Origin: Sedimenticola sp.
Lineage (GTDB): Bacteria; Pseudomonadota; Gammaproteobacteria; Chromatiales; Chromatiaceae
Assembly (NCBI GenBank): GCA_026994195.1
Contig: JALWRH010000105.1
Span: 1-41,453 of the forward strand
Length of the DNA: 41,453 bases
Reading direction: 5' to 3'
The notes beneath the pieces were generated by a model. That model had not been told where the DNA came from. It worked only from the letters and a program-made list of their open reading frames with translations, and did no database searches. Position numbers and translations under genes: made by a program. Shown here piece by piece: positions 4,500 through 25,918 of this stretch. Position 1 is the stretch's first letter. Every line of letters begins with the position of its first letter.

Positions 4500-4576
4500 A
4501 GGCGCGTAGCTCAGCTGGTTAGAGCACCACCTTGACATGGTGGGGGTCGGCGGTTCGATTCCGTTCGCGCCTACCA
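4500..4576 (+). tRNA. tRNA-Val (anticodon GAC)
   Basis: This 77-base gene has acceptor stem AGGCGCG paired with CGCGCCT, discriminator A and an encoded CCA. The D arm is GCTCAGCTGGTTAGAGC. The anticodon arm is CCACC-TTGACAT-GGTGG, giving GAC. The T arm has TTCGATT. The anticodon stem-loop is the same as that of the E. coli tRNA-Val with the GAC anticodon. Confidence 0.97.
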
Positions 4577-4688: not shown

Positions 4689-4733
4689 ACTGTCATACAG
4701 ATGACAGTCTCCGATGCAGTAGTCCTATATGGT
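4689..4733 (+). promoter_or_regulatory. Regulon site 1: TGTCA-N6-TGACA palindrome plus -10, upstream of the 113-residue stress protein
   Basis: ACTGTCAT (4689-4696) and ATGACAGT (4701-4708) form a perfect palindrome around ACAG, with core TGTCA-N6-TGACA at 4691-4706. The dyad centre is 4698.5. TATGGT (4728-4733) is a 4/6 match to the -10 and predicts a start near 4740, putting the dyad at about -41.5, as in class II CRP/FNR-activated promoters. No -35 is needed in that arrangement. The downstream gene starts at 4779. Confidence 0.75.
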
Positions 4734-4778
4734 TCAATGTAACTCTCATTGAGCTTTTCAGCTTTTTGTGTGGATCAA

Positions 4779-5120
4779 ATGAAAAAATCCAACTGCTGCA
4801 TTGCTATCTTTCCTGACCATGCCAGTGCTGTGAAGGCTGTTGATCAGCTGCGGAAAAACCACATAGATAACAGCCTTATTTCCCTGGTCGGAAAGGAAAA
4901 GCAATTTGGAACTGTGGGCATCAATGGATTATCAATGTTGAATGAAGACCTGACTCAATTGGGTGTTCAGGAAGGGACTTTGTACTGCTACCAATGCATG
5001 GTGCACAGCGGTTCTTTTCTCGTGGTTGTCTCTGGCAGCCCTGGGCAGGTGGAATCCGCCTGCGATCAGTTGGAAAAGTTTGACCAGGCAGATGTTGCTC
5101 TTCATTTCAACACCCCCTGA
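4779..5120 (+). CDS. Small YflT/DUF1269-like stress protein (tentative)
   Basis: The 113-residue protein begins MKKSNCCIAIFPDHASAVKA. I placed the start at ATG 4779; the frame opens at 4749, but those extra residues look unrelated. The opening pattern, a short hydrophobic strand followed by DHASAVKAVDQLRKNHI and a second strand LISLVGKE, resembles the start of YflT/DUF1269-type stress proteins, in which a helix pairs with two strands. A second strand-helix unit, SFLVVVSGSPGQVESACDQL, lies near the C-terminus. There is no signal peptide or membrane helix, so it should be cytoplasmic. It lies behind a perfect copy of the window's shared palindrome. The family link is tentative and the function unknown. 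Confidence 0.7.
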   Translation: MKKSNCCIAIFPDHASAVKAVDQLRKNHIDNSLISLVGKEKQFGTVGINGLSMLNEDLTQLGVQEGTLYCYQCMVHSGSFLVVVSGSPGQVESACDQLEKFDQADVALHFNTP

Positions 5121-5162
5121 AGGATCACCAGCCCCCAATACCGCCACTCCCTTCTCTCTTGT

Positions 5163-5205
5163 TGTCACCCAAATGACATACAACCCTTTCCCGTCAATCC
5201 AAAAT
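5163..5205 (+). promoter_or_regulatory. Regulon site 2: TGTCA-N6-TGACA plus -10, upstream of the 64-residue protein
   Basis: TGTCA (5163-5167), CCCAAA and TGACA (5174-5178) give a perfect core with the dyad centre at 5170.5. CAAAAT (5200-5205) is a 4/6 match to the -10 and places the start near 5212, with the dyad at about -41.5. The site sits between the two small stress-type genes, so each has its own copy. Confidence 0.7.
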
Positions 5206-5256
5206 AACCCTGAACATACTCTTACAGGTTATCCTACCACTATGGAGACAACGATC

Positions 5257-5451
5257 ATGAGCAAGACCATAACCAAGACTTTCAAATCCCACGAGGCACT
5301 CAGCAATGTAAAAGAAGACCTCATTGCCACGGGTATTGAACAGGAGCAGATTTTTGTGGACAAAGACAAGAATCAGGTCAAGGTCATCATTCCCAAGGAA
5401 GCAGAACCTGAGATTCTTGAGATCCTGAGTCGCCACCAACCCCTGGACTGA
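5257..5451 (+). CDS. 64-residue protein of unknown function
   Basis: The protein starts MSKTITKTFKSHEALSNVKE at ATG 5257, with GGAGA 9-13 bases upstream. The open frame begins at 4963, but most of that extension overlaps the previous gene. The pattern is strand, helix (SHEALSNVKEDLIATGI), strand (IFVDKD), strand (QVKVIIPK) and helix (EPEILEILSRH), consistent with a small ferredoxin-like alpha/beta fold. No catalytic or metal motif is visible. It has its own copy of the shared palindrome and is followed by a strong hairpin, so it is probably a single-gene transcript. I do not recognise a named family. Confidence 0.7.
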   Translation: MSKTITKTFKSHEALSNVKEDLIATGIEQEQIFVDKDKNQVKVIIPKEAEPEILEILSRHQPLD

Positions 5452-5456
5452 GCAGT

Positions 5457-5495
5457 CAGTGCAAAGGCACGCGGGATCGCCTTTGCGCTGGTTTT
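5457..5495 (+). terminator. Strong hairpin between the 64-residue gene and gpmA
   Basis: CAGTGCAAAGGC (5457-5468) pairs with GCCTTTGCGCTG (5479-5490), a 12-base stem with one G-T pair and a 10-base loop, followed by GGTTTTG. It is likely a terminator for the small gene. It ends only 11 bases before the gpmA ATG, where no Shine-Dalgarno sequence is visible, so it could also affect gpmA translation. Confidence 0.6.
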
Positions 5496-5501
5496 GTCCC
5501 C

Positions 5502-6194
5502 ATGAGTCAAGAAGGACAGCTTGTTCTGGTACGGCACGGGCAGTCCGTATGGAACAGGCAGAACCGCTTTACCGGCTGGGTAGATGTATCTCTGAGCCAG
5601 GAAGGGATAGCTGAAGCCTCCAGAACAGGCGAACTGCTGCGCTCCACACGGTTTGACTTGGCTTTTACCTCTTCATTGTTGCGTGCCCAGGACACCCTCT
5701 ATGAGATTTTGAAGCAGAATCGTCACTGCGACCAGTATATACGCATCCATGAAACCAGTAGCGAATGGTATGAACACTTCGTCTCCACCCAGGCTGACCT
5801 GGTAGAACTGAAGATCTACATTTCCGAGAAACTGAACGAACGCTACTATGGCGATCTTCAGGGCAGGAACAAAGATGCCGCCAGGAAAGAATTTGGTGAT
5901 GAGAAGATTCACCTCTGGCGGCGCAGCTACGACATCCCGCCCCCTGGTGGCGAAAGCCTTGAAATGACCGCGCTGCGCGTCATTCCCTATTACCATTCAC
6001 ACATCAGGCCCCATCTCAAAAAAGGCGCTTCAGTATTGGTTTCTGCTCACGGCAATTCCCTGCGTGCGCTCATCATGCACCTGGAACAACTGACCCCGGA
6101 ACAGATATTAGCCTACGAGTGGCCCACGGGATCTCCCCATATCTATCGTTTTGACCGCAATATTCAAATAGTGGACAAGAAAGTGCTCTCTTAA
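5502..6194 (+). CDS. gpmA: 2,3-bisphosphoglycerate-dependent phosphoglycerate mutase, short-lid variant
   Basis: It interconverts 3- and 2-phosphoglycerate in glycolysis and gluconeogenesis in the cytoplasm. The histidine-phosphatase motif LVRHGQSVWN gives the phosphorylated H12. RFTGWVDVSLSQEG, LNERYYGDLQGRNKD and VSAHGNSLRALI (H183) are diagnostic of GpmA. The protein is 230 residues against about 250 in E. coli. It has an insertion of roughly 25 residues before LNERYYG (STQADLVELKIYISEK) and lacks most of the loop after RRSYDIPPP. The start at 5502 has no visible ribosome site and sits directly behind a hairpin. It stands with other central-carbon enzymes in the window. Confidence 0.93.
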   Translation: MSQEGQLVLVRHGQSVWNRQNRFTGWVDVSLSQEGIAEASRTGELLRSTRFDLAFTSSLLRAQDTLYEILKQNRHCDQYIRIHETSSEWYEHFVSTQADLVELKIYISEKLNERYYGDLQGRNKDAARKEFGDEKIHLWRRSYDIPPPGGESLEMTALRVIPYYHSHIRPHLKKGASVLVSAHGNSLRALIMHLEQLTPEQILAYEWPTGSPHIYRFDRNIQIVDKKVLS

Positions 6195-6267
6195 GACCCT
6201 ATATCCATAACCGTTCCCGGCAGGCTATACTTGCTGCTCGGCAAGCCTGAGCCTTTCCTGCAAAACG

Positions 6268-7005
6268 ATGAAGAACAGTCAGCCCCTATACCATACTTAC
6301 CGTGCGCGATTGTCCAAAGCGGCGCTTTTTCAGGGTCTGTCTGCCAATACCCTGGATGACATGCTGTCCCATTTCCGTTTCGAATCCTGGAACAGGGGCT
6401 CTACTCACGACAGCAGCGTTGCTCTGCGCCGCTTCTATGTCATCATAGAAGGACGCATGCAATTGACCCGCATTCACCCCGGGACAGGAAAGCAGATCAC
6501 CATCTCTATTCTCAGCGATGGAGACATGTATGATGTTCTGACCCTGCTGGACGGGCAACTGCATGACATCACCCCCAGTGCCCTGGATGACCTCAAACTG
6601 CTCTCCGCACCCATTGATGAAGTGCGCAACTGGATCCGGGAGCACCCGGATTTCAACAGAAATTTTCTGCCCTATCTGGGAAAACGAATTCGCTGCCGGG
6701 AGGCTCTGGCTACCGACCTGGGTCTGTATGATACACATACCCGATTGGCCAGACTCATACTCCGGCACGTAAATCCACACGATTCTTCTCAGGAAGATTC
6801 GGGTATCGAAGTCAATCTGCTGCGCGGCCTTTCCAATGAAACCCTGGCCCAAATGGTGGGGGCAGCCCGGCAAGTTATCAACAAACACCTCCAGGCCATG
6901 AAAAAGGACGGGATCCTGCACGTCGAGAACCGCCGGCTTATCATTGATGACCTGAACCGGCTGCAACAGGAAGCGCAAGATCTGGAAAATCATCTGTTAG
7001 GATGA
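6268..7005 (+). CDS. Crp/Fnr-type transcription regulator (first paralogue)
   Basis: The 245-residue protein has a cyclic-nucleotide-binding-like barrel at about residues 15-125, a dimerisation helix (about 128-165, with FNRNFLPYLGKRIR) and a C-terminal winged helix (LSNETLAQMVGAARQVINKH) with recognition helix about 199-210. The CRP phosphate-binding Arg-Ser-Ala signature is replaced in the region DVLTLLDGQLHDITPSALDD, and there is no FNR-type N-terminal cysteine cluster, so neither cAMP nor an FNR-like iron-sulfur cluster is likely. TATACT at 6226-6231 could be its -10. It probably forms an operon with the cardiolipin synthase 46 bases downstream. It is paralogous along its whole length to the regulator at 33608-34384 and is a candidate reader of the TGTCA-N6-TGACA sites. 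Confidence 0.92.
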   Translation: MKNSQPLYHTYRARLSKAALFQGLSANTLDDMLSHFRFESWNRGSTHDSSVALRRFYVIIEGRMQLTRIHPGTGKQITISILSDGDMYDVLTLLDGQLHDITPSALDDLKLLSAPIDEVRNWIREHPDFNRNFLPYLGKRIRCREALATDLGLYDTHTRLARLILRHVNPHDSSQEDSGIEVNLLRGLSNETLAQMVGAARQVINKHLQAMKKDGILHVENRRLIIDDLNRLQQEAQDLENHLLG

Positions 7006-7051
7006 GGAAGCTACAGCAAAAACACCGCAGTATCTTCTGCTGAGGCATACG

Positions 7052-8431
7052 ATGCTTGATTTTGCTCTATATCACCTCTTCCTTGCCTTGGGAGTGTTGC
7101 TGGCCCTCTTTCTCATCGCCCAAGTGTTGCGGGAGCGGCGACCACCGGCAGCTTCTCTGGCCTGGTTGCTCTTTATCGTCACTCTTCCCTATATCGCCAT
7201 CCCTCTCTACCTCACGATTGGCATACGAAAAATCAAGTTCAACAACAAATCTGCGCTCTACAGCCGTCCCACGCACTCAGATCAGACCTCTACAATACCG
7301 GACCTTGACCTGCTGCTGGATTCCTACGGGATTCCTGAAGCCTCCGAGAACAATCAGGTGATATTCCATACGGATGGTGAAGAAGCCAGAACGGCGCTGT
7401 GGGACACCCTGGACTCAGCACTGAAACAGCTGGATATCGCCATTTTCATACTGGCTGATGACTTACTGGGAAAACAGGTATGCGAGAAACTCAAACTCAA
7501 GGCGCAAAGTGGTGTACAGGTGCGTTTGCTGCTCGATGGCGTTGGCTCCTTTTTGTTGCCACGTCACCGGGTTCGGGAACTGCAGGAACATGGAGTGCAG
7601 GTACTCTGGTTCATTCCCGTGCTACACCGGCCATTCAAGGGACGCACCAACCTACGTAATCACCGCAAGCTGGTACTGGCTGATGGCCAGCGTCTCTGGA
7701 CCGGCGGCAGAAATCTGGCTCAGGAGTATTTCGACTCGATAGGGGCACAGGGGCAACCCTGGCTGGATCTGAGCTTCGATCTCCAGGGGCCAGGTGTCAT
7801 CCAGTACCAGGAACTCTTCGAGGAAGACTGGAGGTTTGCAGGCGGGCAAACTCCGACACCCGGCACCCTCCCCCCGCCCATATCTGCAGGGAAATCACGC
7901 ACCCGTTTGCTGCCATCCGGACCGGATATGCCCAATGATCCTTTGCAGGCATTGCTGCTCGCGGCCTGCTTTGAAGCTCAGGAAAAGATTGTTGCCGTAA
8001 CCCCTTATTTCATCCCCGATGACCCGATCATGGAAGGCCTCTGCCTGGCCGCCAGGCGTGGGATTTCGGTAACCTTGATCCTGCCTGAGAAATCCAACCA
8101 CCTGCTCCCGGATATTGCCCGGAACCGTTATCTACGGGAACTGACGACATCCGGCGCCACCATAGTGCTGCTGCCTCAGATCATGTGCCATGCCAAAGCG
8201 CTGGTGGTGGATCAGCGCCTGGGGCTTTGCGGTAGTGCCAACCTCGATCTGCGCAGCCTGTATCTCAATTTTGAAGCCATGACACTTTTCTACCAGCAAG
8301 ATGACATTCTTTGGCTGACCCACTGGATGAAGAACCTTGCTTCCCGGGGTATCGAACACAAGCCCAATACCCCGGGAACAATCGGACTGCTCCTGGAAGG
8401 GGTTGTTGTCATGCTCTCCTTTCAACTTTGA
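7052..8431 (+). CDS. Cardiolipin synthase / phospholipase D family membrane enzyme
   Basis: The 459-residue protein starts with two membrane helices (about residues 3-25 and 36-58), then carries two PLD motifs: NHRKLVLADG with H204 followed by GGRNLAQEYFD, and CHAKALVVDQ with H380 followed by GSANLDLRS. This is the ClsA layout, in which two phosphatidylglycerols are converted to cardiolipin and glycerol at the inner membrane. TGAGG lies 8 bases before the ATG. It follows the regulator closely on the same strand, so the two may be co-transcribed. ClsA-type synthase is the best reading. Another phosphatidyltransferase of the same family cannot be excluded. Confidence 0.88.
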   Translation: MLDFALYHLFLALGVLLALFLIAQVLRERRPPAASLAWLLFIVTLPYIAIPLYLTIGIRKIKFNNKSALYSRPTHSDQTSTIPDLDLLLDSYGIPEASENNQVIFHTDGEEARTALWDTLDSALKQLDIAIFILADDLLGKQVCEKLKLKAQSGVQVRLLLDGVGSFLLPRHRVRELQEHGVQVLWFIPVLHRPFKGRTNLRNHRKLVLADGQRLWTGGRNLAQEYFDSIGAQGQPWLDLSFDLQGPGVIQYQELFEEDWRFAGGQTPTPGTLPPPISAGKSRTRLLPSGPDMPNDPLQALLLAACFEAQEKIVAVTPYFIPDDPIMEGLCLAARRGISVTLILPEKSNHLLPDIARNRYLRELTTSGATIVLLPQIMCHAKALVVDQRLGLCGSANLDLRSLYLNFEAMTLFYQQDDILWLTHWMKNLASRGIEHKPNTPGTIGLLLEGVVVMLSFQL

Positions 8432-8468
8432 ATGTAACAGGATACAGCTGGAAAGATATTCAGGAAAA

Positions 8469-8510
8469 AGTCATCTAGACGACACTTCAACCCCCTACTC
8501 TTATGGCAAT
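8469..8510 (+). promoter_or_regulatory. Degenerate regulon site upstream of the pta-ackA-xfp-glgP operon
   Basis: AGTCA-TCTAGA-CGACA (8469-8484) matches TGTCA-N6-TGACA at 8 of 10 fixed positions, with the dyad centre at 8476.5. The hexamer at the expected -10 position, GGCAAT (8505-8510), is weak. It is the only palindrome in the 115-base gap before the pta start. I rate it as a possible low-affinity site. Confidence 0.35.
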
Positions 8511-8546
8511 GTGTGAAAATGACGCCTGAATCTGGATAGGCACACC

Positions 8547-9461
8547 ATGAAAAATCTGCAGGGAAAAGGCTTCAAAGAACTCCTTGAGCGTGCAAGAACC
8601 TGTCCGCCGCTCACTGTAGCCGTGGTGGATGCCGGGGAGACTCACGTCCTACAGGGTGTTTTTGAAGCCCGCGATGAGGGCTTGCTGAAACCGGTTCTTA
8701 TTGGCAGGCCTGATCGTATTCAAGAAGCTGCGCAAGCCTTGGGGCATACAGAAGTTCAGGACCCGATCATTCCGGTTCAATCGGATCAGGCAGCAGCAGA
8801 AGCCGGGGTGGAACTGGTTCTACAAGGAAAGGCCAACGCCCTGGCCAAGGGCTGGATTCATACCGATATGCTTCTGCACCCGGTAGTGAGAAAGCTGCGC
8901 ACAGAGCGCCGCGTAAGCCATGTATTCGTGGCGCAAATGGCGAGCTATCACAAACTGCTTTGCATAACCGACGCAGCAATAAACATCGAACCCGACCTGC
9001 TGATCAAGGCTGCCATCGTACAGAATGCCATTGACCTCACTCTGTTGCTAGGCATCAAGGAGCCAAAGGTTGCTGCACTCTCAGCGGTAGAAGTTGTCAA
9101 ACCGGGAATAGCGTCAACAATCGATGCCGCCTGCCTGAGCAAGATGGCTGAACGGGGACAGATAAAGGATGGAATCGTGGATGGACCTTTGGCCTTCGAC
9201 AACGCCATTTCTGCCGAAGCCGCCCGCATCAAAGACATACACAGCCCAATAGCAGGTGATGTGGACATCCTCCTGGCGCCGGATCTCAATGCCGCTAACA
9301 TCCTAGCCAAGAATCTCGAATATCTTGCCGGCGCTACCCTTGCGGGTATCGTGGTCGGCGCCAAGGTTCCTATTATTCTGCCTTCACGCTCCGACCCTCC
9401 CCTGGCTCGCCTGGTAGCGGCGGCTCTGGCGGTATTGTCGGCTGTGGATAAAGATGGATAG
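8547..9461 (+). CDS. Phosphate acetyl/butyryltransferase family protein
   Basis: The 304-residue protein is the short Pta/Ptb type, about the length of the catalytic PTA_PTB domain alone. Motifs include KPVLIGRPDRI, LAKGWIHTDMLLHPVV, ITDAAINIEPDL, VVDGPLAFDNAIS and LLAPDLNAANILAKNLEYLA, followed by AGIVVGAKVPIILPSRSD. It should interconvert acetyl-CoA (or another short acyl-CoA) and acyl phosphate. It is followed by acetate kinase and phosphoketolase, so acetyl phosphate is the likely common metabolite, and acetyl specificity is inferred from that context. ATG 8547 is the first methionine of the conserved frame. It heads a four-gene operon behind a degenerate regulon palindrome. Confidence 0.88.
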   Translation: MKNLQGKGFKELLERARTCPPLTVAVVDAGETHVLQGVFEARDEGLLKPVLIGRPDRIQEAAQALGHTEVQDPIIPVQSDQAAAEAGVELVLQGKANALAKGWIHTDMLLHPVVRKLRTERRVSHVFVAQMASYHKLLCITDAAINIEPDLLIKAAIVQNAIDLTLLLGIKEPKVAALSAVEVVKPGIASTIDAACLSKMAERGQIKDGIVDGPLAFDNAISAEAARIKDIHSPIAGDVDILLAPDLNAANILAKNLEYLAGATLAGIVVGAKVPIILPSRSDPPLARLVAAALAVLSAVDKDG

Positions 9462-9548
9462 GGCGATTAAGAGTGATGTGTTTGGTCGCTGGGTTAATAA
9501 TAAAGTAACAGCAAATGCTGTATTTTCTGAAAACAGGAGTATTTTTTC

Positions 9549-10760
9549 TTGACCCAGACTCGCTCAGTTCCGCTTCTGCTGACGATCAATGCCGGCTCAT
9601 CAAGCCTCAAATTTGCCCTGTATGAAGCAGCTGAGCCTCTTGCGGATGCTTGCTTTCGGGGGGCCATACGGCAGATTGGCGACGCACCATACTTCGATTT
9701 GCTCCAAAGCCCCGATGGTGCTGCCACCAGCTGGAAGATCGATGCCAGCACTCCAGAAGAAGCCATAGCCGAACTAATGGCATGGCTGGGGCGGCATCCC
9801 TACCATCCGGTCATCCTCGCGGCAGGGCACCGGGTTGTTCATGGCGGCAGTACATTCGACAAACCCGTTCTGCTGAACCGCAAAATACTTCAGCAACTGG
9901 AATCCCTCAGCCCCCTGGCACCTCTGCACATGCCACACAATCTGGCAGGGGTAAAGTCGTTGTGGCAACATCTTCCTGACCTGCCCCAGGTGGCCTGTTT
10001 CGATACAGCATTCCATTGGCATATGCCCCCTGTTGAACACGAGTTCGCTATTCCCCGTTCCTGGCGCGACCTTGGCATACAGCGCTATGGTTTTCATGGA
10101 CTGTCCTATGAGTACATCGCCCAGGTATTGCCAGAATATCTTGGCCAGAAAGCAGACGGACGAATCATCGTCGCGCATCTGGGCAGCGGCGCCAGCCTGT
10201 GCGCCCTGCATCGCCGGCGCAGCATTGCTACCACCATGAGCTTTACGCCTTTGGATGGAATTCCCATGGCAACCCGGCCCGGCCAACTCGATCCCGGGGC
10301 ACTTCTCTATCTGCGTCAACAGGGCTTTGATGACAAAACCATCAGCCAGGGTCTCAACCATGAATCAGGACTTCTTGGGCTGTCAGGCATCAGCGGCGAC
10401 ATACGCTCCCTGTTGACCCACTCTGACCCAACCGCCCAGCTGGCGGTGAAGTACTTTGTCCACCACACTCATCGGGCCATCGGTTCTCTGGCCGCTGCCC
10501 TCGGAGGGCTGGATGCTCTCATCTTTACGGCAGGTATTGGCGAGAACTCCGCTTTCATACGCCAGCAGTTGTGCGAGAAAGGCGCCTGGCTGGGACTTGA
10601 GCTCGACCCCAAAGCCAACGAACAGGGGCAAGGGCGGATCAGCCCCGGGCACTCGATTCCTTCCGTATGGGTGATACCCACCAACGAGGAACTGATGGTA
10701 GCCCGGCACACGCTTCACCTCACACAGGAACTTTTGCTTGAGCAAGGCACACCAACATGA
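9549..10760 (+). CDS. ackA: Acetate kinase, TTG start
   Basis: Acetate kinase makes ATP and acetate from acetyl phosphate. The 403-residue protein has [72 protein letters not shown] and [14 protein letters not shown], all standard ASKHA acetate kinase motifs. The start is TTG 9549. AGGAG lies 10 bases upstream and no ATG is available before the conserved strand. A tight inverted repeat, ACAGCA-AA-TGCTGT (9508-9521), lies just upstream of the ribosome site. Phosphoketolase follows 34 bases after, so acetyl phosphate produced by both neighbours can be cashed in as ATP. Confidence 0.95.
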
Positions 10761-10794
10761 AAACGGTACCCGATACCCGAGCATGGGAGCAATC

Positions 10795-13173: not shown

Positions 13174-13176
13174 ACG

Positions 13177-15678: not shown

Positions 15679-15699
15679 TGCTGCTGCCTACAGCCCCAT

Positions 15700-16320: not shown

Positions 16321-16501
16321 CGAAATATCCCAACCTACCCACAATGAAAATGAGGTCCCTTGCCAACAAAATCAACCTGAAGAAGCCAGCCCAATATACA
16401 GACAAAACCCGCTGTTTTCGAATAAACCTGCCGCAGGGCATCTCAAACAGTTCATGACTACCCTACGACAAATCTTACCTCCACAGAATTGGCTGACCGC
16501 A

Positions 16502-16545
16502 GCTGTCATACAAATGACAGCGTGACGAAAAACAGCCAGTAAGAT
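16502..16545 (+). promoter_or_regulatory. Regulon site 3: TGTCA-N6-TGACA plus -10, upstream of the PDH operon
   Basis: GCTGTCAT (16502-16509) and ATGACAGC (16514-16521) form a perfect palindrome around ACAA, with core 16504-16519 and centre 16511.5. TAAGAT (16540-16545) is a 4/6 match to the -10 and predicts a start near 16552, putting the dyad at about -40.5. The E1 alpha ATG is at 16580. The remaining part of the 259-base gap toward dedA shows no clear promoter. Confidence 0.75.
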
Positions 16546-16579
16546 AGTAAAGACCCAACATAGCTTCACAGGCTTGACC

Positions 16580-17632
16580 ATGAAACGCGATACCTTGCTA
16601 TCCATGTTGCATGACATGCTGCTGGCGCGCGCCTTTGAGGAACGGGCCGCGCAGGAATATACAAAAGGCAATATCGCCGGTTTCCTGCACCTCTATCCCG
16701 GGGAAGAAGCCGTTGCTGTAGGCGTACTTCATGGGGCAGAACCCAATGACTATATTGTCAGTACCTACCGGGAGCATGTCCATGCCCTGGTGCGTGGTGT
16801 GCCGGCAGAGAAAGTCATGGCTGAATTGTTTGGCAGGCGTGACGGATGCAGTGGCGGCATGGGCGGTTCCATGCACTTGTTCGACCACGAACGGCGCTTC
16901 ATGGGAGGCTATGGCATCGTCGGGGAGACCTACCCCGTAGCCATTGGCATTGGCTACAGCATAGCCATGCAGGAACTGCCAGAAGCCGTCATCTGTTTCT
17001 TCGGTGATGGCGCGGTTAATCAGGGCACTTTTCATGAATCACTCAATATGGCGGCCTTATGGAAACTGCCGGTATTGTTCGTATGTGAAAACAACCGCTA
17101 CCAGATCGGTACAGAGATCCATCGTCATTCCGCGGTAACCGAAGTATACAAACGCGCTTGCGGCTATCGTATTCCCAGTGAAAAGGTGAACGGCATGGAC
17201 GTGCTGGCCGTGCATCAGGCCACTCTGTCAGCCCTGCAAAGAATCCGGGAAGGAACCGGCCCACAGTTTCTGGAAGTGGAGACCTATCGATTCCGCGGCC
17301 ATTCCATGTCCGACCCGGGAAGTTACCGGCCCAATGTTGAAGTACAGGCTTTCAAGGATGAGGACCCCGTTACCGTGGTTCTCGAAGAGAGCATTCCAAA
17401 CTACCCCACCGAAAGCCAGCTCGACGCCCTGGGCAGAGACAACATCGCCCATCTGACCGGCCACATGCGCCGGGAAGGTTATCTGGAAATGGAAGATGTT
17501 GCGCACATGAAAGACGAAATCGCCAGGCTTGTAGACAGCGCCGTAAATTTTGCCCTCAACAGCCCCGAGCCGGACATGCAGGATGCTTGGCAGGCCCTGA
17601 ATTGCAATCGTGGTCAGGAGGTAGTGATCTGA
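16580..17632 (+). CDS. pdhA: Pyruvate dehydrogenase E1 component, alpha subunit
   Basis: With E1 beta it decarboxylates pyruvate and reductively acetylates the lipoyl domain of E2. The 350-residue protein starts MKRDTLLSMLHDMLLARAFE at ATG 16580, with AGG 8 bases upstream. It has GFLHLYPGEEAVAVGV, YIVSTYREHVHALVRGVP, GGMGGSMHLFD and the TPP-binding pattern GDGAVNQGTFHESLN with VCENN about 25 residues on. YRFRGHSMSDPGSYR is the phosphorylation-loop equivalent. This heterotetrameric type differs from the single-chain AceE of E. coli. Its stop overlaps the E1 beta start by one base. A 2-oxoacid specificity other than pyruvate is possible, but the context favours pyruvate. Confidence 0.94.
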   Translation: MKRDTLLSMLHDMLLARAFEERAAQEYTKGNIAGFLHLYPGEEAVAVGVLHGAEPNDYIVSTYREHVHALVRGVPAEKVMAELFGRRDGCSGGMGGSMHLFDHERRFMGGYGIVGETYPVAIGIGYSIAMQELPEAVICFFGDGAVNQGTFHESLNMAALWKLPVLFVCENNRYQIGTEIHRHSAVTEVYKRACGYRIPSEKVNGMDVLAVHQATLSALQRIREGTGPQFLEVETYRFRGHSMSDPGSYRPNVEVQAFKDEDPVTVVLEESIPNYPTESQLDALGRDNIAHLTGHMRREGYLEMEDVAHMKDEIARLVDSAVNFALNSPEPDMQDAWQALNCNRGQEVVI

Positions 17633-18624
17633 TGAGCGAAGAAACCCCCGTATGGAAAGCGCTCAACCTGGCTATGGATGCTGAAATGTCCGATGATGAC
17701 AGCGTTTTCACCCTGGGAGAAGATGTGGGCCTCTATGGCGGCAGTTACCGGGTGACTCAGGACTTGTACGCACGCTACGGCGAATGGCGCGTTCGTGACA
17801 CCCCGATCTCTGAAGGCAGTTTCACCGGCCTGGCGGTCGGCGCCGCCATGGTGGGCATGCGTCCAGTTGTTGAGATCATGACTGTCAACTTTGCTCTTCT
17901 TGCCCTGGATGCCATCATCAACATGGCGGCAAAGATTCCTTTCATGTCAGGTGGACAGTTTCCCATGCCACTGGTGGTACGCATGCCCGGAGGCGTTGCC
18001 AAGCAGCTTGCTGCCCAGCACTCGCAGCGCCTGGAACATACTCTGATGAATGTGCCAGGCCTGCGTATTGCTGTACCTGCCACGCCACAAGATGCCTGGT
18101 GGCAATTGCGCCAGGCAATACGCAGCGACGAGCCAATCGTGTTTCTTGAGCATGAACTGCTGTATTTCAGTAAAGGGACGCTGGACACCAAGCTACCGCC
18201 ACCCCCCATGCATCGAGCCACCGTGCGCCGACCGGGCAATGATCTAACCATCATCAGTTACTCGCACATGGCCAAGCTGTCCCTGAAAGCCGCTGAACGA
18301 CTCTCCGCCGAAGGCATGGATATCGAGGTCATCGATCTTCGCAGCCTGCGCCCTATCGACTGGGACAGCTGTGCCGCTTCTGTTGAAAAAACACACCATC
18401 TGCTGGTGGTGGAAGAGGACTGCGGCTTTGCCGGAGCAGGCGCCGAGATTGTTGCCACCCTGACTGAGCGCTGTTTCCATTTCCTCGATGCACCTGCCCA
18501 GCGGCTTGCCGGCCTGGATATGCCAACCCCTTACAACGGCACTCTGGAAACTGCGAGCATTCCCACCACTGCATCCATCGCGGACGCTGCAAGGCAAATG
18601 CTCCTGCCGGGAGAAATCTCATGA
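17632..18624 (+). CDS. pdhB: Pyruvate dehydrogenase E1 component, beta subunit
   Basis: This is the partner of E1 alpha. The 330-residue protein starts MSEETPVWKALNLAMDAEMS at ATG 17632, with AGGAGGT 9 bases before it, the strongest ribosome site in the operon. Motifs include FTLGEDVGLYGGSYRVTQ, RVRDTPISEGSFTGLAVGAA and PLVVRMPGGVAKQLAAQHSQ in the pyrimidine-binding domain. The C-terminal transketolase domain has IEVIDLRSLRPIDWD and LLVVEEDCGFAGAGAEI. It overlaps pdhA by one base and pdhC by four. The length is standard for the family. Confidence 0.95.
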   Translation: MSEETPVWKALNLAMDAEMSDDDSVFTLGEDVGLYGGSYRVTQDLYARYGEWRVRDTPISEGSFTGLAVGAAMVGMRPVVEIMTVNFALLALDAIINMAAKIPFMSGGQFPMPLVVRMPGGVAKQLAAQHSQRLEHTLMNVPGLRIAVPATPQDAWWQLRQAIRSDEPIVFLEHELLYFSKGTLDTKLPPPPMHRATVRRPGNDLTIISYSHMAKLSLKAAERLSAEGMDIEVIDLRSLRPIDWDSCAASVEKTHHLLVVEEDCGFAGAGAEIVATLTERCFHFLDAPAQRLAGLDMPTPYNGTLETASIPTTASIADAARQMLLPGEIS

Positions 18625-19769
18625 AGAAAGAGCCCATTACCATGCCAGTGTTATCCGATACCATGGAGAGCGGTCACCTGATCAAATGGCTGAAACAGCC
18701 TGGTGACAGAGTGAAGAAAGGAGACATCCTGGCCGAAGCCGAGTCTGACAAAGCCATTATGGATGTTGAAGCTTTCTCAGACGGATATCTGACGGGCCCT
18801 CTGGCAAGTCCTGGCACTGACATACCCACGGGCACTGTCATCGGATACATCAGTGATGCGCCGGAGCATGCCGGGAATGAGACAGAACAGCAACCCTCCA
18901 TTCCAGCAACGACATCAACCAGCCAAAACAGCACCCAGCCGGCAACTCATCCATCTGCCGCCCCACCCCATGAACATGCCAGGCATAACACCAGGGACAT
19001 CAAGGCTTCCCCTTATGCAAGAGGATTGGCCCATGAACTGGGCGTGAACCTGGCAACCGTGCCACCCGGCCCACAGGGCATCATACAAGCCCCCCAGGTA
19101 GTTGCTGCCGCCATGCAAGGACCACAGCCGAATCTTGATGCAGGTCCCGGTTGGCGATTCAAAATGCTTTCCAGCATGCGCCGCGCTGTTGCGGACAACA
19201 TGTCGGCCACCGTAAATACCCCTACTTTCCGGATCAGCAGTGATTTACGTATGGATCTTCTGCGCCAGGCAGCAAAAAAGCGGGGGATGTCATTGACGCT
19301 GCTTCTCGCCAAAGCCCTGGCACTGACAGTAACCAAGCACCCTCTATTCAACGCCGTCTACACGCCCAATGGACTGGCATTGCGCCAACAGGTGAATGTG
19401 GGTATTGCCGCCGATGTTCCTGGAGGCTTGTTGACACCAGTATTGCACAACGCCGCAGAACGTCCCGTCCCGGAACTTGCCGAGGACTGGCGCATTCTCA
19501 AGAACAAACTCAAGCGGCAACGCCTGGCGCCCGAAGACTATGAAGGGGCCACCATCTATCTATCCAACCTCGGCATGTTCAAAGTGGTCAAGAGTTTTGA
19601 AGCCATCGTACCCCTGGGAGCCGCTGCCATACTGTCTGTGGGCGCCCAAAAGGATGGCGCAGCCAGCGGCACCCTCAGCTGCGATCATCGGGTGGTTTAT
19701 GGCGCAGATGCCGCCCGCTTTCTCGAGACGCTGACAGCCTTACTCAACAACCCCGGAGACTGGTCATGA
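18621..19769 (+). CDS. pdhC: Dihydrolipoamide acetyltransferase (PDH E2), single lipoyl domain, plastid/cyanobacteria-like active site
   Basis: E2 moves the acetyl group from lipoamide to CoA and forms the core of the complex. The 382-residue protein has one lipoyl domain (about 1-77, lipoyl lysine K44 in ESDKAIMDVEA), an Ala/Pro/Thr/His linker, an E3-binding domain (IKASPYARGLAHELGVNLA onwards) and the catalytic domain. The active-site signature reads LSCDHRVVYGADAARF, with H356 present but Y360 where most E2 proteins have Asp (DHRVVDG). The TAT codon is clear in the sequence. From memory, plastid and cyanobacterial E2 proteins carry HRVIYGAD, so this is probably functional and points to that branch. 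It overlaps both neighbours by four bases (ATGA). Confidence 0.93.
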   Translation: MKKEPITMPVLSDTMESGHLIKWLKQPGDRVKKGDILAEAESDKAIMDVEAFSDGYLTGPLASPGTDIPTGTVIGYISDAPEHAGNETEQQPSIPATTSTSQNSTQPATHPSAAPPHEHARHNTRDIKASPYARGLAHELGVNLATVPPGPQGIIQAPQVVAAAMQGPQPNLDAGPGWRFKMLSSMRRAVADNMSATVNTPTFRISSDLRMDLLRQAAKKRGMSLTLLLAKALALTVTKHPLFNAVYTPNGLALRQQVNVGIAADVPGGLLTPVLHNAAERPVPELAEDWRILKNKLKRQRLAPEDYEGATIYLSNLGMFKVVKSFEAIVPLGAAAILSVGAQKDGAASGTLSCDHRVVYGADAARFLETLTALLNNPGDWS

Positions 19770-21178
19770 TATTGGACAAATATGATTACCTGGTAATTGG
19801 CGGTGGTCCTGGTGGTACCCCGGTAGCATCAGCCCTTGCACAGGCAGGCAAGCAGGTATTGCTGGTTGAGAAAGGTGCCGGCCTTGGCGGCACCTGCCTT
19901 TTTGAAGGCTGTATCCCGTCAAAGATATTCAGAGAGTCGGCCCGCCGCCTCAGAGAACTCCGGGAATCCGACGACTTTGGTTTGTGCCTGCCCAGCAGAG
20001 ATGTACATATCGACTGGAGTGCCATTCAGGAACGGAAACAGTCCATCCTGCACTTGCGCAGCATCGGCGCCATGCAGCGGATACGGCAGAATCCTTCTCT
20101 GGATGTCGTCTTGGGAAGCGCCATGTTTCTGAACAGTACACATGCACGTATCACCCCGGTTTCAGACGGTCCTGTGGACATCGAGTTCCGTGAGGCTGTT
20201 ATCGCAACAGGCTCGCAGCCTGTTCGCCCTCCCATCCGCGGTGTGGACAATCCTCATGTGCTGGACAGTGGACAAATCCTGGACATCAATCATATCCCCA
20301 AGAGACTCGCCATCATCGGCGCTGGCCCTATCGGAGTGGAACTCAGTCAGATATTCAACACATTTGGCAGTGAAGTGACCCTGTACGAGGCCGGTCCCCG
20401 TATCCTGTCTCCTGTGGACCAGGATTTGGCAGAATACCTGCAGCAGAAAATGTCAGATGATGGCATCGAAGTCATTACAAACTGCCATATCAAATGCATT
20501 TCCCGAACCGGCAGCGGTGTATTTGTCGAATACCTGTCCAATGGCAATCCCTCTGCACATCGTTATACGGACACCGTTCTACTGGTCACCGGCAGGCAAC
20601 CCAACACAGAAGGACTGGGCCTGGAAAACACTGCTGTCAAACAAACCCCTCACGGCATCCAGGTGAACAGCCACCTACAGACCAACGAAAGCAATATCTT
20701 CGCCCTGGGTGATGTCATTGGACAACCCATGTTTGCCCACTGGGCCACAGCCCAGGCTCTGGCGTTGGCAAAAAACCTGTTGAACCAGCCCAGTCCCTTT
20801 CCTGTTACCGAGAACAATACCGCAGTTATCTTCAGCGAGCCTGAACTGGGCATGGCCGGTCTCACAGAAACACAGGCACAATCCCGCGACATCGACTATG
20901 CGGTTGCCCGTTACCATTTCAAGCAAGACGCCCGCGCCCAGATCGCCAACCAGGCCAGGGGACAACTCAAGATTCTATACACGAGAGACAAGCACCGGAT
21001 CATTGGCCTCCATGCACTGGTGGAGGGGGCGGGAGACCTCATGGGCGAAGCCGCCCTGGCTATTGCACAAGGCACGACACTGGAAGAACTGGCCAGCGCC
21101 ATCCATCCCCACCCGACCCTTACAGAATCTTTTGCGGCAGCAGCCCGCGCTGCTTTGCAGGAAAACAGTTCAGGTTAG
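19766..21178 (+). CDS. lpdA: Dihydrolipoamide dehydrogenase (PDH E3)
   Basis: E3 reoxidises dihydrolipoamide with FAD and NAD+. The 470-residue protein has the FAD motif YLVIGGGPGGTPVASALAQA, the redox disulfide C44/C49 in GGTCLFEGCIPSK, the NAD-binding motif LAIIGAGPIGVELSQIF, IFALGDVIGQPMFAHWATAQ and the C-terminal catalytic HPHPTLTESF. It starts four bases before the pdhC stop and ends the operon. The 79 bases after it hold a small hairpin around GTGTC/GACAC (21196-21213) without a T tract. Context makes it the E3 of this complex. Confidence 0.95.
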   Translation: MILDKYDYLVIGGGPGGTPVASALAQAGKQVLLVEKGAGLGGTCLFEGCIPSKIFRESARRLRELRESDDFGLCLPSRDVHIDWSAIQERKQSILHLRSIGAMQRIRQNPSLDVVLGSAMFLNSTHARITPVSDGPVDIEFREAVIATGSQPVRPPIRGVDNPHVLDSGQILDINHIPKRLAIIGAGPIGVELSQIFNTFGSEVTLYEAGPRILSPVDQDLAEYLQQKMSDDGIEVITNCHIKCISRTGSGVFVEYLSNGNPSAHRYTDTVLLVTGRQPNTEGLGLENTAVKQTPHGIQVNSHLQTNESNIFALGDVIGQPMFAHWATAQALALAKNLLNQPSPFPVTENNTAVIFSEPELGMAGLTETQAQSRDIDYAVARYHFKQDARAQIANQARGQLKILYTRDKHRIIGLHALVEGAGDLMGEAALAIAQGTTLEELASAIHPHPTLTESFAAAARAALQENSSG

Positions 21179-21257
21179 CCCGTAATATACACGCGGTGTC
21201 AACCTGCGGACACTGGGCTATTCCGCCCTACCCTCTGCAATACTGTTGCTCACGGAG

Positions 21258-21599
21258 CTACTGTGGCAGAAACTCATCGATGGCATCAAGCAAGGGAGTC
21301 ATATACATGTAAGCCGGTCCACCGTGCATGATCACAGCCATGAAACCCGCTTCCACGATCTCGTCCCGGGTCGCTCCGGCTCGCACCACCTGCTCGACAT
21401 GGAAGGCTATACACCATTCACACTGCGCAGCTACCGCCAGAGCCACATTGATCAGCTCTTTCTCCTTTATGCCCAACGCCTTTCCGGATTCAGCCTTTTG
21501 CAAGAAACCCAGAAACGCATCGGTTTCCATAGGATAGTCCTTTCGAAGCTGTTCGGTCAGCGTCTTTATTTCTTCCATTTTTCTATGCATCTTCTCCAT
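21258..21599 (-). CDS. AhpD-like / carboxymuconolactone decarboxylase family protein
   Basis: The protein is 113 residues from ATG 21599, preceded by GAGGTG 7 bases upstream. An upstream in-frame start at 21623 lies across that ribosome site. The hallmark is QCEWCIAFHVEQVVRAGATR, with C60, C63 and H67 as in the AhpD thiol-disulfide active site. Family members are alkylhydroperoxidase-type reductases or proton-relay enzymes and often use the CxxC pair in peroxide defence. The true substrate is unknown. It lies 102 bases downstream of the HdeD-like gene on the same strand, so the two probably share the divergent palindromic promoter. Confidence 0.88.
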   Translation of the reverse strand: MEKMHRKMEEIKTLTEQLRKDYPMETDAFLGFLQKAESGKALGIKEKELINVALAVAAQCEWCIAFHVEQVVRAGATRDEIVEAGFMAVIMHGGPAYMYMTPLLDAIDEFLPQ

Positions 21600-21701
21600 A
21601 GTCTTGCACCTCACTGCAATCAAAGAAGTGTTGATGAAAAAGAAAGGCAGAGGCCGATCCTACACCTCCAGATGGGGCTCCACCTTTCTTGTGTGGCTTA
21701 C

Positions 21702-22274
21702 TCAGGACGCAGCATGTCGTTGAGCCCACCCGATATAGACAAGCACGACACCATCAAAGAACAGGCTGATAGCCACATACAGACCAACAAGAAACATGGA
21801 CGTAGCAGGCCAACCGATCAGAAACAGCATCGCCAGCAACAGGGACAAAATCCCATTGAACATCATCCAGCCCCAACCTCGTGCTGGGCGCAAAGATGAA
21901 GCCAGGGAGAAACTGCCAAAGGCATCCAACAACAGGTACACCGCCAACAGCAGGCCTACGGCGGCAATGCCACTAAGTGGGTAGAACAACATGAATCCAC
22001 CAGTAACCAGAAGCAAAACCGGCTTCAGCCAGTCACCCCAATTCCTGAGGCTGTACTTGAACGAATGGGACAGCCAGAATATGCCGCCCACCAGAAACAG
22101 GCTGGCGATGAAAATGCTGGTTTCCAGGGACATCAGCCCCGGAAGTACCATGCCTACACTGCCAAGTATTATCAATAAAAATCCTACAATGATGGAATAG
22201 CGGCCAAAGCGCTTGTTCAGTTGCTCGGCTACGGCTCCGGCACCTCCGTCCAAAGCATTTATAGGTTCTTGCAT
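21702..22274 (-). CDS. HdeD/DUF308-family membrane protein
   Basis: The 190-residue protein has a short hydrophilic N-terminus and about six membrane helices in paired repeats (YSIIVGFLLIILGSVGMVLP, TSIFIASLFLVGGIFWLSHS, KPVLLLVTGGFMLFYPLSG, AAVGLLLAVYLLLDAFGSF and so on), with the RPARGWGWMMFNGILSLLLA segment typical of HdeD. HdeD in E. coli supports acid resistance at high cell density. The role here is presumed to be membrane stress. GAGGAG lies 6 bases before the ATG. It is divergent from the TSUP transporter and shares the regulon palindrome at 22363 with it. Confidence 0.88.
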   Translation of the reverse strand: MQEPINALDGGAGAVAEQLNKRFGRYSIIVGFLLIILGSVGMVLPGLMSLETSIFIASLFLVGGIFWLSHSFKYSLRNWGDWLKPVLLLVTGGFMLFYPLSGIAAVGLLLAVYLLLDAFGSFSLASSLRPARGWGWMMFNGILSLLLAMLFLIGWPATSMFLVGLYVAISLFFDGVVLVYIGWAQRHAAS

Positions 22275-22335
22275 GTCTGTTCTCCTCTAGAATAGTTTTA
22301 CTGTTATGAAAATGGTTGCTCTTCATACTTTTTCA

Positions 22336-22405
22336 AGTATGCCTAAAACTGTTGATATTGCCTGTCACATGAATGACAGGCTTTGAAAGCGCTAGCAGTT
22401 ACATT
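22336..22405. promoter_or_regulatory. Regulon site 4: dual divergent promoter of hdeD-like and TSUP genes
   Basis: The core TGTCA-CATGAA-TGACA spans 22363-22378 inside CCTGTCA...TGACAGG, with centre 22370.5. On the plus strand TACATT (22400-22405, 4/6) and on the minus strand CATACT (22341-22336, 4/6) sit at the same distance from the centre. Both predict starts with the dyad at about -41.5. A 6-base inverted repeat ATACTT/AAGTAT (22325-22340) overlaps the leftward -10. One dimer could not activate both directions at the same moment by simple class II contacts, so orientation choice or competition is possible. Confidence 0.72.
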
Positions 22406-22435
22406 TTCATTCCCATACCACGATAATTCGGTTCC

Positions 22436-23230
22436 ATGTCTGAAACCTCCCACCAAGCTGTTCATCACCTGTACGCCAAGTCTTTGGTGATTGGCATCAT
22501 CGCCGGCATCGGCGGAGGACTGGTCAGCCTGGGTGGTGGAACCCTGGTCATCCCCATGCTCATGGGCTGGATGAAGATGACACCTGTTGCTGCACGAGGC
22601 ACTGCCATGGCCGTAAGCCTGTTTACTGCCAGCATGGGCGCATTCATGTACGGCAAGAGCAATATGCTGGATCTGCCAGTGGCAGTCTGGGTTGCCATCC
22701 CTTCGCTGGTAGTGGCCCCACTGGCTGCAAATTGGTCTGAAAACTGGCCAGCCACACGACTGAAAAGAGGCTTTGGCCTGGCAGTCATCCTGGGCGGCCT
22801 GCTCGTCATGTTCAGAGACGAAGCGGGCATTTCCCTACATATCAATGGCCAGTGGGAGATCCCCTTTCTACTGATGGTCGGCCTGTTTGAAGGACTGGTT
22901 GCTGGCGTGATTGGAATCAGTGGTGGCCCGGTTCTTGCGCCTCTCTTCGTGCTGGGCATGGGCATGCCACAACAACTCGCCCAGGGATGCTCCCTTGCTG
23001 CCAGACTGCCGGCTGTTGGGACGGGCACCTGGGAAAACTGGAAACTGGGAAACATCCAAATGCGCTGGATCCCCGGACTGGCCCTGGGGGGAATGGCTGG
23101 CGCCTGGGCTGGAAGCAGGACAGCGCTGTGGCTGCCCGAACACGGGTTGAGGGTGCTTTTTGCGGTTCTGTTGATCACCCTGGGTGGTCATTACCTGACA
23201 ACTTCCACCCATCACATCCGGCATAGCTGA
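22436..23230 (+). CDS. TSUP (TauE/SafE) family membrane transporter
   Basis: The 264-residue protein has seven to eight membrane helices and the TSUP hallmarks GIGGGLVSLGGGTLVIPMLM near the N-terminus and the repeated GLVAGVIGISGGPVLAPLFV in the second half. The family exports or imports sulfite, sulfoacetate, thiosulfate or other organosulfur anions across the inner membrane. The substrate here cannot be read from sequence. The start MSETSHQAVHHLY follows no strong ribosome site. It is alone on its strand, divergent from hdeD, under the shared palindrome. Confidence 0.9.
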   Translation: MSETSHQAVHHLYAKSLVIGIIAGIGGGLVSLGGGTLVIPMLMGWMKMTPVAARGTAMAVSLFTASMGAFMYGKSNMLDLPVAVWVAIPSLVVAPLAANWSENWPATRLKRGFGLAVILGGLLVMFRDEAGISLHINGQWEIPFLLMVGLFEGLVAGVIGISGGPVLAPLFVLGMGMPQQLAQGCSLAARLPAVGTGTWENWKLGNIQMRWIPGLALGGMAGAWAGSRTALWLPEHGLRVLFAVLLITLGGHYLTTSTHHIRHS

Positions 23231-23308
23231 AAGATCCACTCAAGAAGCTCCGATGGATTCAGGGTAAGGCCAATGCAGGGTAAAAAGCTGAATATCGGGC
23301 TGTGAGCT

Positions 23309-24172
23309 CTATTGATCCGGCAGGCGCACGACCATCACATCACAGCGGGCATTGTGCACAACGGCAGCAGCCGTCGATCCCAGCAACCTGGCAATGCCGT
23401 GTTTTCCGTGGGAACCCACCACGATTAAATCCGCCTTCTGCGCCTCTGCATAAGACAGTATGGCACTGTTCGGTCCACCCCAGATCACCTCATGCTGTAC
23501 ATCCGGATAATCGAGCTCCCTGGCCAGCTTGTCCAGGAGCATTACGGCGCGATCATGCCTTTTCTGATCGAGTTCCACAAACTCCGCCGGATCATACATG
23601 GCCAGATCATTTCCCAGATCCGGGTAGAAAGTATTCTCCACAGCATGAATCAACGACAGCTTTGCTTTATAGTGATGAACCAACTCCAAAGCTCTTGCCA
23701 ATACCTTTTGGGAATGGGGCGTGAAATCCAGTGCCACCAGGATGTTTCGGTATGCATCCGGGGCTTCTTTCAGCAGTTCTTCCGTACTCGTTATTGCTGA
23801 CAGCTGGTCTTCATCTCCTTTTCTTAGCCAGTCCCAGGCGTCCTGAATACGGTTCTGGTAGAAAAAGCGTATCTTGGTGAGGGTAAAGGCATCTCCAATG
23901 GCTGACATCCATTTCTGCCAGGCTTTCTGGCCGACAATGGCTATGCGTACAAAGTCCTTATCATGTTCCATGCCAAACCGGAAGTCGTCCCATGCGGCCT
24001 TTGGCTCCCAGCCCTGAAAGTCCACCAACTCAATCATCAGTGAGATTGGGCCACAATCCTCTATCAGCTTCTGCAAACGCGGCAGAAACTGCTGATAGTC
24101 GGCATCGGTAAGCTTTCCTGATGCGCGGACAGCAAATATGTTTTTTTCAGAAACCGGTACAAACTCAATCAT
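23309..24172 (-). CDS. Fusion of SpoIIAA-like (STAS) domain and UspA universal stress domain
   Basis: The 287-residue protein starts MIEFVPVSEKNIFAVRASGK at ATG 24172, with GGGAGAG 4-10 bases before it. An upstream in-frame start at 24196 would put that site inside the gene. Residues 1 to about 125 match the SpoIIAA-like fold (KLTDADYQQFLPRLQKLIED, ISLMIELVDFQGW, RIAIVGQKAWQKWMS). Residues about 140-287 are UspA (NILVALDFTPHSQKVLARAL, DLIVVGSHGKHGIARLLGST), with the GxxG-N9-G(S/T) ATP-binding pattern intact. It is probably a cytoplasmic stress protein whose N-terminal domain binds a partner or lipid. It is divergent from the beta-CASP operon and shares regulon site 5. Confidence 0.88.
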   Translation of the reverse strand: MIEFVPVSEKNIFAVRASGKLTDADYQQFLPRLQKLIEDCGPISLMIELVDFQGWEPKAAWDDFRFGMEHDKDFVRIAIVGQKAWQKWMSAIGDAFTLTKIRFFYQNRIQDAWDWLRKGDEDQLSAITSTEELLKEAPDAYRNILVALDFTPHSQKVLARALELVHHYKAKLSLIHAVENTFYPDLGNDLAMYDPAEFVELDQKRHDRAVMLLDKLARELDYPDVQHEVIWGGPNSAILSYAEAQKADLIVVGSHGKHGIARLLGSTAAAVVHNARCDVMVVRLPDQ

Positions 24173-24217
24173 GATCACTCTCCCGTCAGCAGACAAATCT
24201 TTTTTGGCTATGCCGAT

Positions 24218-24286
24218 ATCTTACTGCTTGCTGAAGTTCTGCCTGTCATTCAGGTGACATGATCTTTTATCTGGATAACCTATACT
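24218..24286. promoter_or_regulatory. Regulon site 5: dual divergent promoter of the UspA fusion and the beta-CASP/aldolase operon
   Basis: The core TGTCA-TTCAGG-TGACA spans 24244-24259, with centre 24251.5. On the plus strand TATACT (24281-24286) is a 5/6 -10 predicting a start near 24293 with the dyad at -41.5. On the minus strand TAAGAT (24223-24218) sits 28.5 bases from the centre, the same hexamer at the same distance as in the PDH promoter. This is the best-formed site of the set. The remainder of the 254-base gap shows no other gene. Confidence 0.78.
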
Positions 24287-25824: not shown

Positions 25825-25918
25825 AGAAAGCGCTGATCAATCAGACATTCCCAGACAAACATCACAGCAACCTTGAACCAAGAGTACATCCACTACAAAT
25901 GACATTCAGGAGTACATC

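Follow-up and report, generated by a model that had tools for sequence, protein, structure and literature searches.

The window, by which we mean the whole stretch of DNA analysed here, is the entire 41,453-base contig C105 of the genome G000 (2,996,874 bases, 126 contigs), whose genus was taken as Thiolapillus; according to the cited part of PMC4136832, T. brandeum Hiromi 1 oxidises sulfur for growth, using oxygen or nitrate. It carries a cluster of genes for stress proteins, central carbon metabolism and a proton pump together with two regulators of the Crp/Fnr family, Crp1 and Crp2, and five perfect copies of the palindrome TGTCA-N6-TGACA (Table 1). An earlier note on this DNA had found the five copies by eye, and all are exact and lie where it had placed them. 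It had seen none inside a gene, which holds for every accepted gene, the only overlaps being with longer mechanical open reading frames. The copy at 5163 falls in the upstream-extended frame of sp5257, whose start was taken as the ATG at 5257 because the orthologues align from there.

The copies are far more numerous than expected by chance, about 0.03 from the base composition of the window (the earlier note had estimated 0.04) against five present. When one mismatch is allowed, the window holds six copies, compared with 1.38 on average and never more than 4 in 100 shuffles, and among all 5-base half-sites with an N6 spacer TGTCA takes the top rank. Genome-wide, G000 contains seven exact copies, five of them on this contig, and one copy of the reversed control; exact copies are thus not scattered over the genome. 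Allowing one mismatch gives 82 copies in the genome, only about twice the 42 of the reversed control, so it is mainly the exact copies that stand out. Two site-like stretches of the window were not counted, a weak one upstream of pta at 8469, with two mismatches and lacking a -10 hexamer, and one at 34577, with three mismatches.

Table 1 Features of the palindrome-bearing cluster, in window coordinates. The gap is the number of bases between the palindrome and the -10 hexamer.
Feature	Position	Strand	Remarks
Operator 1, TGTCATACAGATGACA	4691-4706	+	-10 TATGGT at 4728-4733, gap 21; upstream of sp4779
sp4779, 113 amino acids	4779-5120	+	no family in Pfam search
Operator 2, TGTCACCCAAATGACA	5163-5178	+	-10 CAAAAT at 5200-5205, gap 21; upstream of sp5257-gpm-crp1-cls
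sp5257, 64 amino acids	5257-5451	+	no family in Pfam search
Phosphoglycerate mutase (gpm)	5502-6194	+	shares run with crp1
crp1, Crp/Fnr-family regulator	6268-7005	+	helix AARQVINKHLQ; favoured candidate regulator
Operator 3, TGTCATACAAATGACA	16504-16519	+	-10 TAAGAT at 16540-16545, gap 20; upstream of pdhA
Pyruvate dehydrogenase E1 alpha, E1 beta, E2, dihydrolipoamide dehydrogenase	16580-21178	+	last three named by translation and adjacency
hdeD-like (DUF308) and ahpD-like (CMD)	21258-22274	-	
hdeD promoter -10 CATACT	22336-22341	-	gap 21
Operator 4, TGTCACATGAATGACA	22363-22378	.	divergent, hdeD/tsup; tsup -10 TACATT at 22400-22405, gap 21
TauE/SafE (TSUP) transporter (tsup)	22436-23230	+	
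SpoIIAA-like/UspA fusion (usp)	23309-24172	-	
usp promoter -10 TAAGAT	24218-24223	-	gap 20
Operator 5, TGTCATTCAGGTGACA	24244-24259	.	divergent, usp/bCASP; bCASP -10 TATACT at 24281-24286, gap 21
Beta-CASP metallo-beta-lactamase-fold protein (bCASP), class I fructose-bisphosphate aldolase, phosphoenolpyruvate (PEP) synthase, P-type H+-ATPase, DUF4010	24427-33520	+	one co-directional run; PEP synthase named from translation
crp2, second Crp/Fnr protein	33608-34384	-	helix STRQAVNRHLQ; no operator in upstream region

Two of the five sites stand between divergent genes, so that the five face seven promoters. These would serve sp4779, sp5257-gpm-crp1-cls, pdhABC-lpd, hdeD-ahpD, tsup, usp, and bCASP-aldolase-PEP synthase-H+-ATPase-DUF4010, with operon structure taken from gene spacing. 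The genes for phosphotransacetylase, acetate kinase, phosphoketolase and glycogen phosphorylase lie 3' of cls on the same strand and have no exact site of their own. The -10-like hexamer that the earlier note had placed at every copy is present, with its spacing corrected to 21 bases at five promoters and 20 at two.

This geometry was examined across 15 genomes of the genus, which together hold 52 exact copies. We regarded 37 of these as linked, since they lie inside the cluster or upstream of an orthologue of a cluster gene; most are orthologous to one another and therefore not independent. A -10 hexamer scoring above 3 bits lies exactly 21 nucleotides past the site in 37 of the 74 orientations of the linked copies, while each of the other gaps between 10 and 49 gives 0 to 7 of 74. 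Eight of the 15 unlinked copies were examined likewise (the seven left out being three of G014, one of G007, two of G003 and one of G011), and none of their 16 orientations has a -10 at gap 21. The eight include the copy L054:7489 of G007, which was put with them, although the pps gene that it precedes is a cluster-gene orthologue, in a genome that lacks crp1. A dyad near -41.5 is the class II position of CRP, and the class II geometry and CRP/FNR-type N6 spacing proposed in the earlier note are thus borne out. The site itself proved longer than the TGTCA-N6-TGACA first described: with both strands of the linked sites counted, a pyrimidine (C or T) occupies position 6 in 73 of the 74 readings and position 8 in 70, so the consensus becomes TGTCAYNYRNRTGACA, with a spacer of pattern YNYRNR. 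The other two exact copies of G000 have a spacer outside this pattern and no -10 at gap 21, and look like chance occurrences. Only the 16-mer and the -10 hexamer are shared among the promoters; the 21 bases between them differ from one promoter to the next.

The sites are kept in orthologous promoters of other Thiolapillus genomes, namely before the orthologues of sp4779, sp5257, pdhA, hdeD/tsup and usp and before a second usp gene heading the fba run, and gene order differs among the genomes that carry them. Counterparts of operator 1 precede the sp4779 orthologues of G006, G009, G010, G014, G004 and G005, and those of operator 2 occur in G006 and G014. At E 1e-20, crp1 is found in five of the 15 genomes (G000, G006, G009, G010 and G014), and these contain 7, 7, 10, 5 and 8 exact sites, respectively, against 0, 0, 2, 4, 5, 2, 1, 1, 0 and 0 in the genomes without it (rank test, P 0.0015). 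The description of the regulon as local stands only in part. The sites are clustered in the lineage of G000, as in G006, where five of seven exact copies lie within 1,929,292-1,954,363 of a 3.1-Mb contig, but sites are also kept on orthologues away from the cluster, before sp4779 (G009 C61, G005 C7) and usp (G009 C4, G005 C64).

Genomes without crp1 supplied several further observations. The bCASP of G001 is 96% identical to that of G000; G001 has no detectable crp1 and no exact site, and its bCASP contig carries no site up to one mismatch. The hdeD site of the same genome (L056:9334) is one base off with the same CATACT -10 and may be a decaying operator. The exact TGTCA-N6-TGACA of G007 before pps (L054:7489) has no -10 at gap 21 and is a chance copy or a relic. 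In 29 regions upstream of cluster genes, taken from genomes of the genus that mostly lack crp1, inspection by eye only, without a formal search, showed no obvious replacement motif.

Both regulators encoded in the window belong to the Crp/Fnr family: Crp1 scores 29.3 bits with the cNMP-binding domain PF00027 (cut-off 27.5) and 49.3 bits with the Crp-type helix-turn-helix PF13545 (cut-off 27), and Crp2 also lies above both cut-offs. The earlier note had proposed these two paralogues as candidate regulators, which is supported; both carry an RQ-type recognition helix. This helix departs from the RE..GR pattern of E. coli-type CRP, with RQVINK in Crp1 and RQAVNR in Crp2. In E. coli CRP, base pair 4 of the half-site is read by Glu181 together with Arg185, as described in the cited part of PMC11253593. 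Crp1 gave 31.9 bits against a cut-off of 266 for NCBI CRP, the NCBIfam equivalog for NtcA gave 56.6 bits against 244.95, and the four 4Fe-4S cysteines of FNR are absent. Crp1 and Crp2 have one cysteine each, and across 30 homologues cysteine reaches a majority in no column of the alignment. Alignment with the structure 4byy pairs GELSIFDPGPRTS of 4byy with DVLTLLDGQLHDI of Crp1, at positions that we take to be residues of the cyclic AMP (cAMP) pocket. Sensing of cAMP or by an Fe-S cluster is disfavoured, as other residues stand at the nucleotide-pocket positions and conserved cysteines are lacking. As regards haem binding and a response to CO of the CooA kind, His99 persists in 28 of the 37 homologues aligned. 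An AlphaFold model of Crp1 came out weak (mean predicted local distance difference test score 64.2, predicted template-modelling score 0.53), and no fold search was based on it.

Regulator and site also occur together in the class. In 369 class genomes we searched for a composite motif made of TGTCAYN4RTGACA, 21 bases and TANNNT, which gave 36 matches in 18 genomes (nine matches in G195) against five for the reversed control. A Crp1/Crp2 profile at E 1e-40 found homologues in 25 of the 369 genomes among the candidates scored, and eight of these 25 carry the composite motif (Fisher, 4e-6). The helix separates them: the motif is present in eight of the ten genomes with an RQ-type helix and in none of the other 15, while it occurs in 10 of the 359 genomes that lack an RQ-type homologue (Fisher, 2e-10 versus RQ-type). 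In G195, a pair of sites separates divergent dnaK-like (Hsp70) and clpB-like genes, and a further site stands upstream of a gene for Hsp20. Taken with the genes of the cluster, this suggests that the regulon joins stress protection with central carbon and proton-pump genes. A scan of named genomes with Crp1 gave only two loci, one of them in Thiolapillus.

The operator varies with the recognition helix. Nine genomes encode homologues with the helix RVVVNRQLQ, in which Val replaces Gln at the position of CRP Glu181, and their ten loci (RV loci, 168 kb, fetched by homology only) were compared with ten crp loci of the RQ type (154 kb). The RQ loci contain 18 TGTCA palindromes, 11 with a -10, and no TGYAA palindrome. 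The RV loci contain nine TGYAA-N6-TTRCA palindromes in six loci, six with a -10 above 2.5 bits at gap 21, and a single TGTCA palindrome without a -10. With half-sites of fewer than three different letters excluded as low-complexity, TGTCA ranks first in the RQ loci and TGYAA first in the RV loci; in the unfiltered ranking of the RV loci, the top places go to A/T-rich half-sites and TGYAA is missing from the eight shown. The nine RV genomes contain 33 copies of the longer form TGYAACN4GTTRCA, of which seven fall inside the fetched loci, less than 1% of the DNA (Poisson, P 3e-9); this was computed for a total of 25.8 Mb, and the listed genome sizes sum to about 24.9 Mb, which moves the expectation from 0.21 to 0.22. 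As it is found in 195 of the 369 class genomes, it is a weak genome marker. Neither TGTCA nor TGYAA stands out around more distant homologues (L176-L182), where no motif was found.

Three columns, E145A, Q202V and H207Q, split 19 RQ from 11 RV proteins; Q202 of Crp1 is the position of CRP 181, and in CRP, Val181 shifts the preference at this base to A:T. The RV clade is nested within the RQ proteins (support 0.999). The Phage_holin_4_2-type, YfdX, P-type ATPase and HdeD families are each preceded by TGTCA sites where the locus is of the RQ type and by TGYAA sites where it is of the RV type; the YfdX member of the RV loci falls slightly under the Pfam cut-off, and the hdeD site there has a weak -10. 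We consider it likely that these proteins form a Crp/Fnr subfamily, one for which no name turned up, that controls stress and central-carbon genes in several families of Gammaproteobacteria and in which the operator passed from TGTCA to TGYAA through Q202V and H207Q with YfdX, Phage_holin_4_2-like, HdeD and P-type ATPase targets retained. The contrast between RQ/TGTCA and RV/TGYAA looks like a natural experiment, in which a regulon swaps its operator and retains its targets.

From the computed sites, their geometry and conservation, their co-occurrence with the regulator and the association of helix with operator, we infer that the palindromes are, very probably, operators of an RQ-type Crp/Fnr subfamily comprising Crp1 and possibly Crp2. 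A dimer of Crp1, or possibly also of Crp2, would occupy the palindrome with its dyad near -41.5, adjoining the TANNNT-like -10, and the bound dimer would activate the seven cluster promoters in class II mode. Its targets would be pyruvate dehydrogenase, the bCASP/aldolase/PEP synthase/H+-ATPase run, the universal-stress, HdeD/AhpD and TauE/SafE proteins and the two small proteins. The run holding crp1 is probably among them, pointing to autoregulation, because crp1 follows operator 2 in a co-directional run with gaps of 50 and 73 nucleotides. The regulon may serve survival under stress or energy limitation. Read in this way, the sequence by itself yields a regulon together with a candidate for its regulator and a code of protein-DNA recognition that can be tested, and it gives a handle on the joint control of stress proteins with pyruvate dehydrogenase and a proton pump in sulfur-oxidising and related bacteria.

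Several points weigh against this assignment. Crp1 was not found in G005 and G004, which carry five and four exact sites, respectively; their contigs end beside fba, where crp1 (in the gene order of G009) or pps-crp1 (in that of G010) is expected, and an assembly gap is a possible explanation. The co-occurrence P values overstate independence because related genomes share ancestry, and the profile search scored at most seven candidates per class genome. Among the RQ-type genomes, G323 has one exact site without a -10, and G186 has no composite motif but one one-mismatch site with a -10. The helix of G186, RQVVNKQLQ, has Gln in place of His; the genome was counted as RQ-type in the eight of ten, but its locus L175 does not figure among the RQ loci, given this intermediate helix. 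The composite motif is also present in ten class genomes without a close homologue. The other Crp/Fnr proteins of G000 were rejected as readers of the sites, given that Glu occupies the CRP 181 position in the eight distinct proteins that aligned, in contrast to the Gln of Crp1 and Crp2; however, the alignment behind this helix comparison failed for six of the 17 PF13545 loci, and L008 and L009 gave the same protein.

A distant Crp/Fnr protein of G076 (L118; C9:46504-47148) with the helix SRQTVTTSL, which has Gln at the same position as Crp1, is encoded about 3.6 kb from the only composite site of that genome (50739-50781). G333 and G216 each have RQTVT-type proteins and one composite site. 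Some of the ten composite sites that lack a close homologue may be due to such proteins.

The division of labour between the two paralogues was also considered. Crp2 has the same helix class and is encoded on the same contig, yet it is unlikely that it is the main regulator in place of Crp1, or that the two compete: G006, which is 100% complete in three contigs, has five clustered sites with Crp1 as its sole homologue at E 1e-20, G010 and G014 (both 84% complete) show Crp1 only, and the second homologue of G009 is not clearly a Crp2 orthologue in the tree. Palindromes of this size are known in several families, and a LysR-, GntR- or TetR-type reader, for example, might merely be co-resident with these Crp proteins. 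The CRP/FNR-like spacing, the class II geometry and the variation of the operator with the Crp recognition helix make this very improbable. The TGACA half resembles the -35 hexamer TTGACA, in which case the palindrome would be incidental; this reading is hardly tenable and was rejected for its wrong spacing, as the -10 sits 21 bases past TGACA, a gap of 17 gives no hexamer above 3 bits in 74 orientations, and both half-sites are conserved. A chance origin might be suggested by the two other exact copies of G000, which lack both the YNYRNR spacer and a -10 at gap 21, but it was rejected on the expectation of 0.03 against five. Against a dispersed repeat without regulatory function, only the 16-mer and the -10 are shared and the 21 bases between them vary, and conservation across genomes contradicts chance and repeat alike, so that either has a negligible probability.

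Among solved structures, the best sequence matches to Crp1 are the actinobacterial CRPs 4byy, 4cyd and 3r6s (E 1.1e-23), presumably GlxR. They have Asn at the position of Crp1 N205 and differ in their helix, RETVNK, with Glu at 181; the operator of actinobacterial CRP is TGTGA. CooA, which has Gln at the same helix position as Crp1, is also matched by sequence (structures 2hkx and 2fmy, E 2.8e-12 and 3.9e-12). Its predicted sites in Desulfovibrio, TGTCGGCnnGCCGACA, have C at base 4, but the half-site is TGTCG and the regulon that of carbon monoxide dehydrogenase, as far as the cited part of PMC545781 goes. In HcpR of delta-proteobacteria, the operator likewise varies with one recognition-helix residue (Arg180) among orthologues, whereas residue, base and regulon are all other than those of Crp1 (PMC545781). 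E. coli CRP shares the fold, the N6 spacing and the class II position, and differs in that its RETVGR helix reads TGTGA (PMC11253593, cited part).

The earlier note knew of no named regulator with this site, a claim that has to be withdrawn: Cmr (Rv1675c) of Mycobacterium tuberculosis, a member of the CRP/FNR family, binds TGTCAGCGTGCTGACA in gel-shift assays, according to the cited part of PMC5499769. The core TGTCA-N6-TGACA is identical, and the likeness was drawn from the site and the published description rather than from the protein sequence. The Cmr spacer opens with G, outside YNYRNR, and redox control of Cmr is ascribed to two cysteines (PMC5499769, same part), whereas the homologues of Crp1 and Crp2 have no conserved cysteine column. 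By the features tested, Crp1 is not an E. coli-type CRP, FNR, NtcA or Cmr-like cysteine sensor. The open PubMed Central literature gave nothing on such a regulon or on the motif in N6 notation, and a description in print elsewhere is possible.

Other features of the window include a tRNA-Val gene (4500-4576, plus strand) directly before operator 1; tRNA genes are common integration sites. Upstream of it, 3768-4211 (plus strand) encodes a small basic protein with similarity to the N-terminal domain of Mrr in its C-terminal part (20.9 bits, under the Pfam cut-off of 29.5) and with a counterpart in G006 (91%). Near the end of the contig (36734-41453, minus strand), three tandem amidohydrolase-like genes, named by translation only, are found, the last cut by the contig end. 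The P-type H+-ATPase (29421-32171, plus strand) shows, by eye, an apparent internal repeat in its C-terminal half, with a second GISV...AADIVL after GIAVSGATDAARAAADIVL; the G006 copy aligns with it over all 916 residues (89%).

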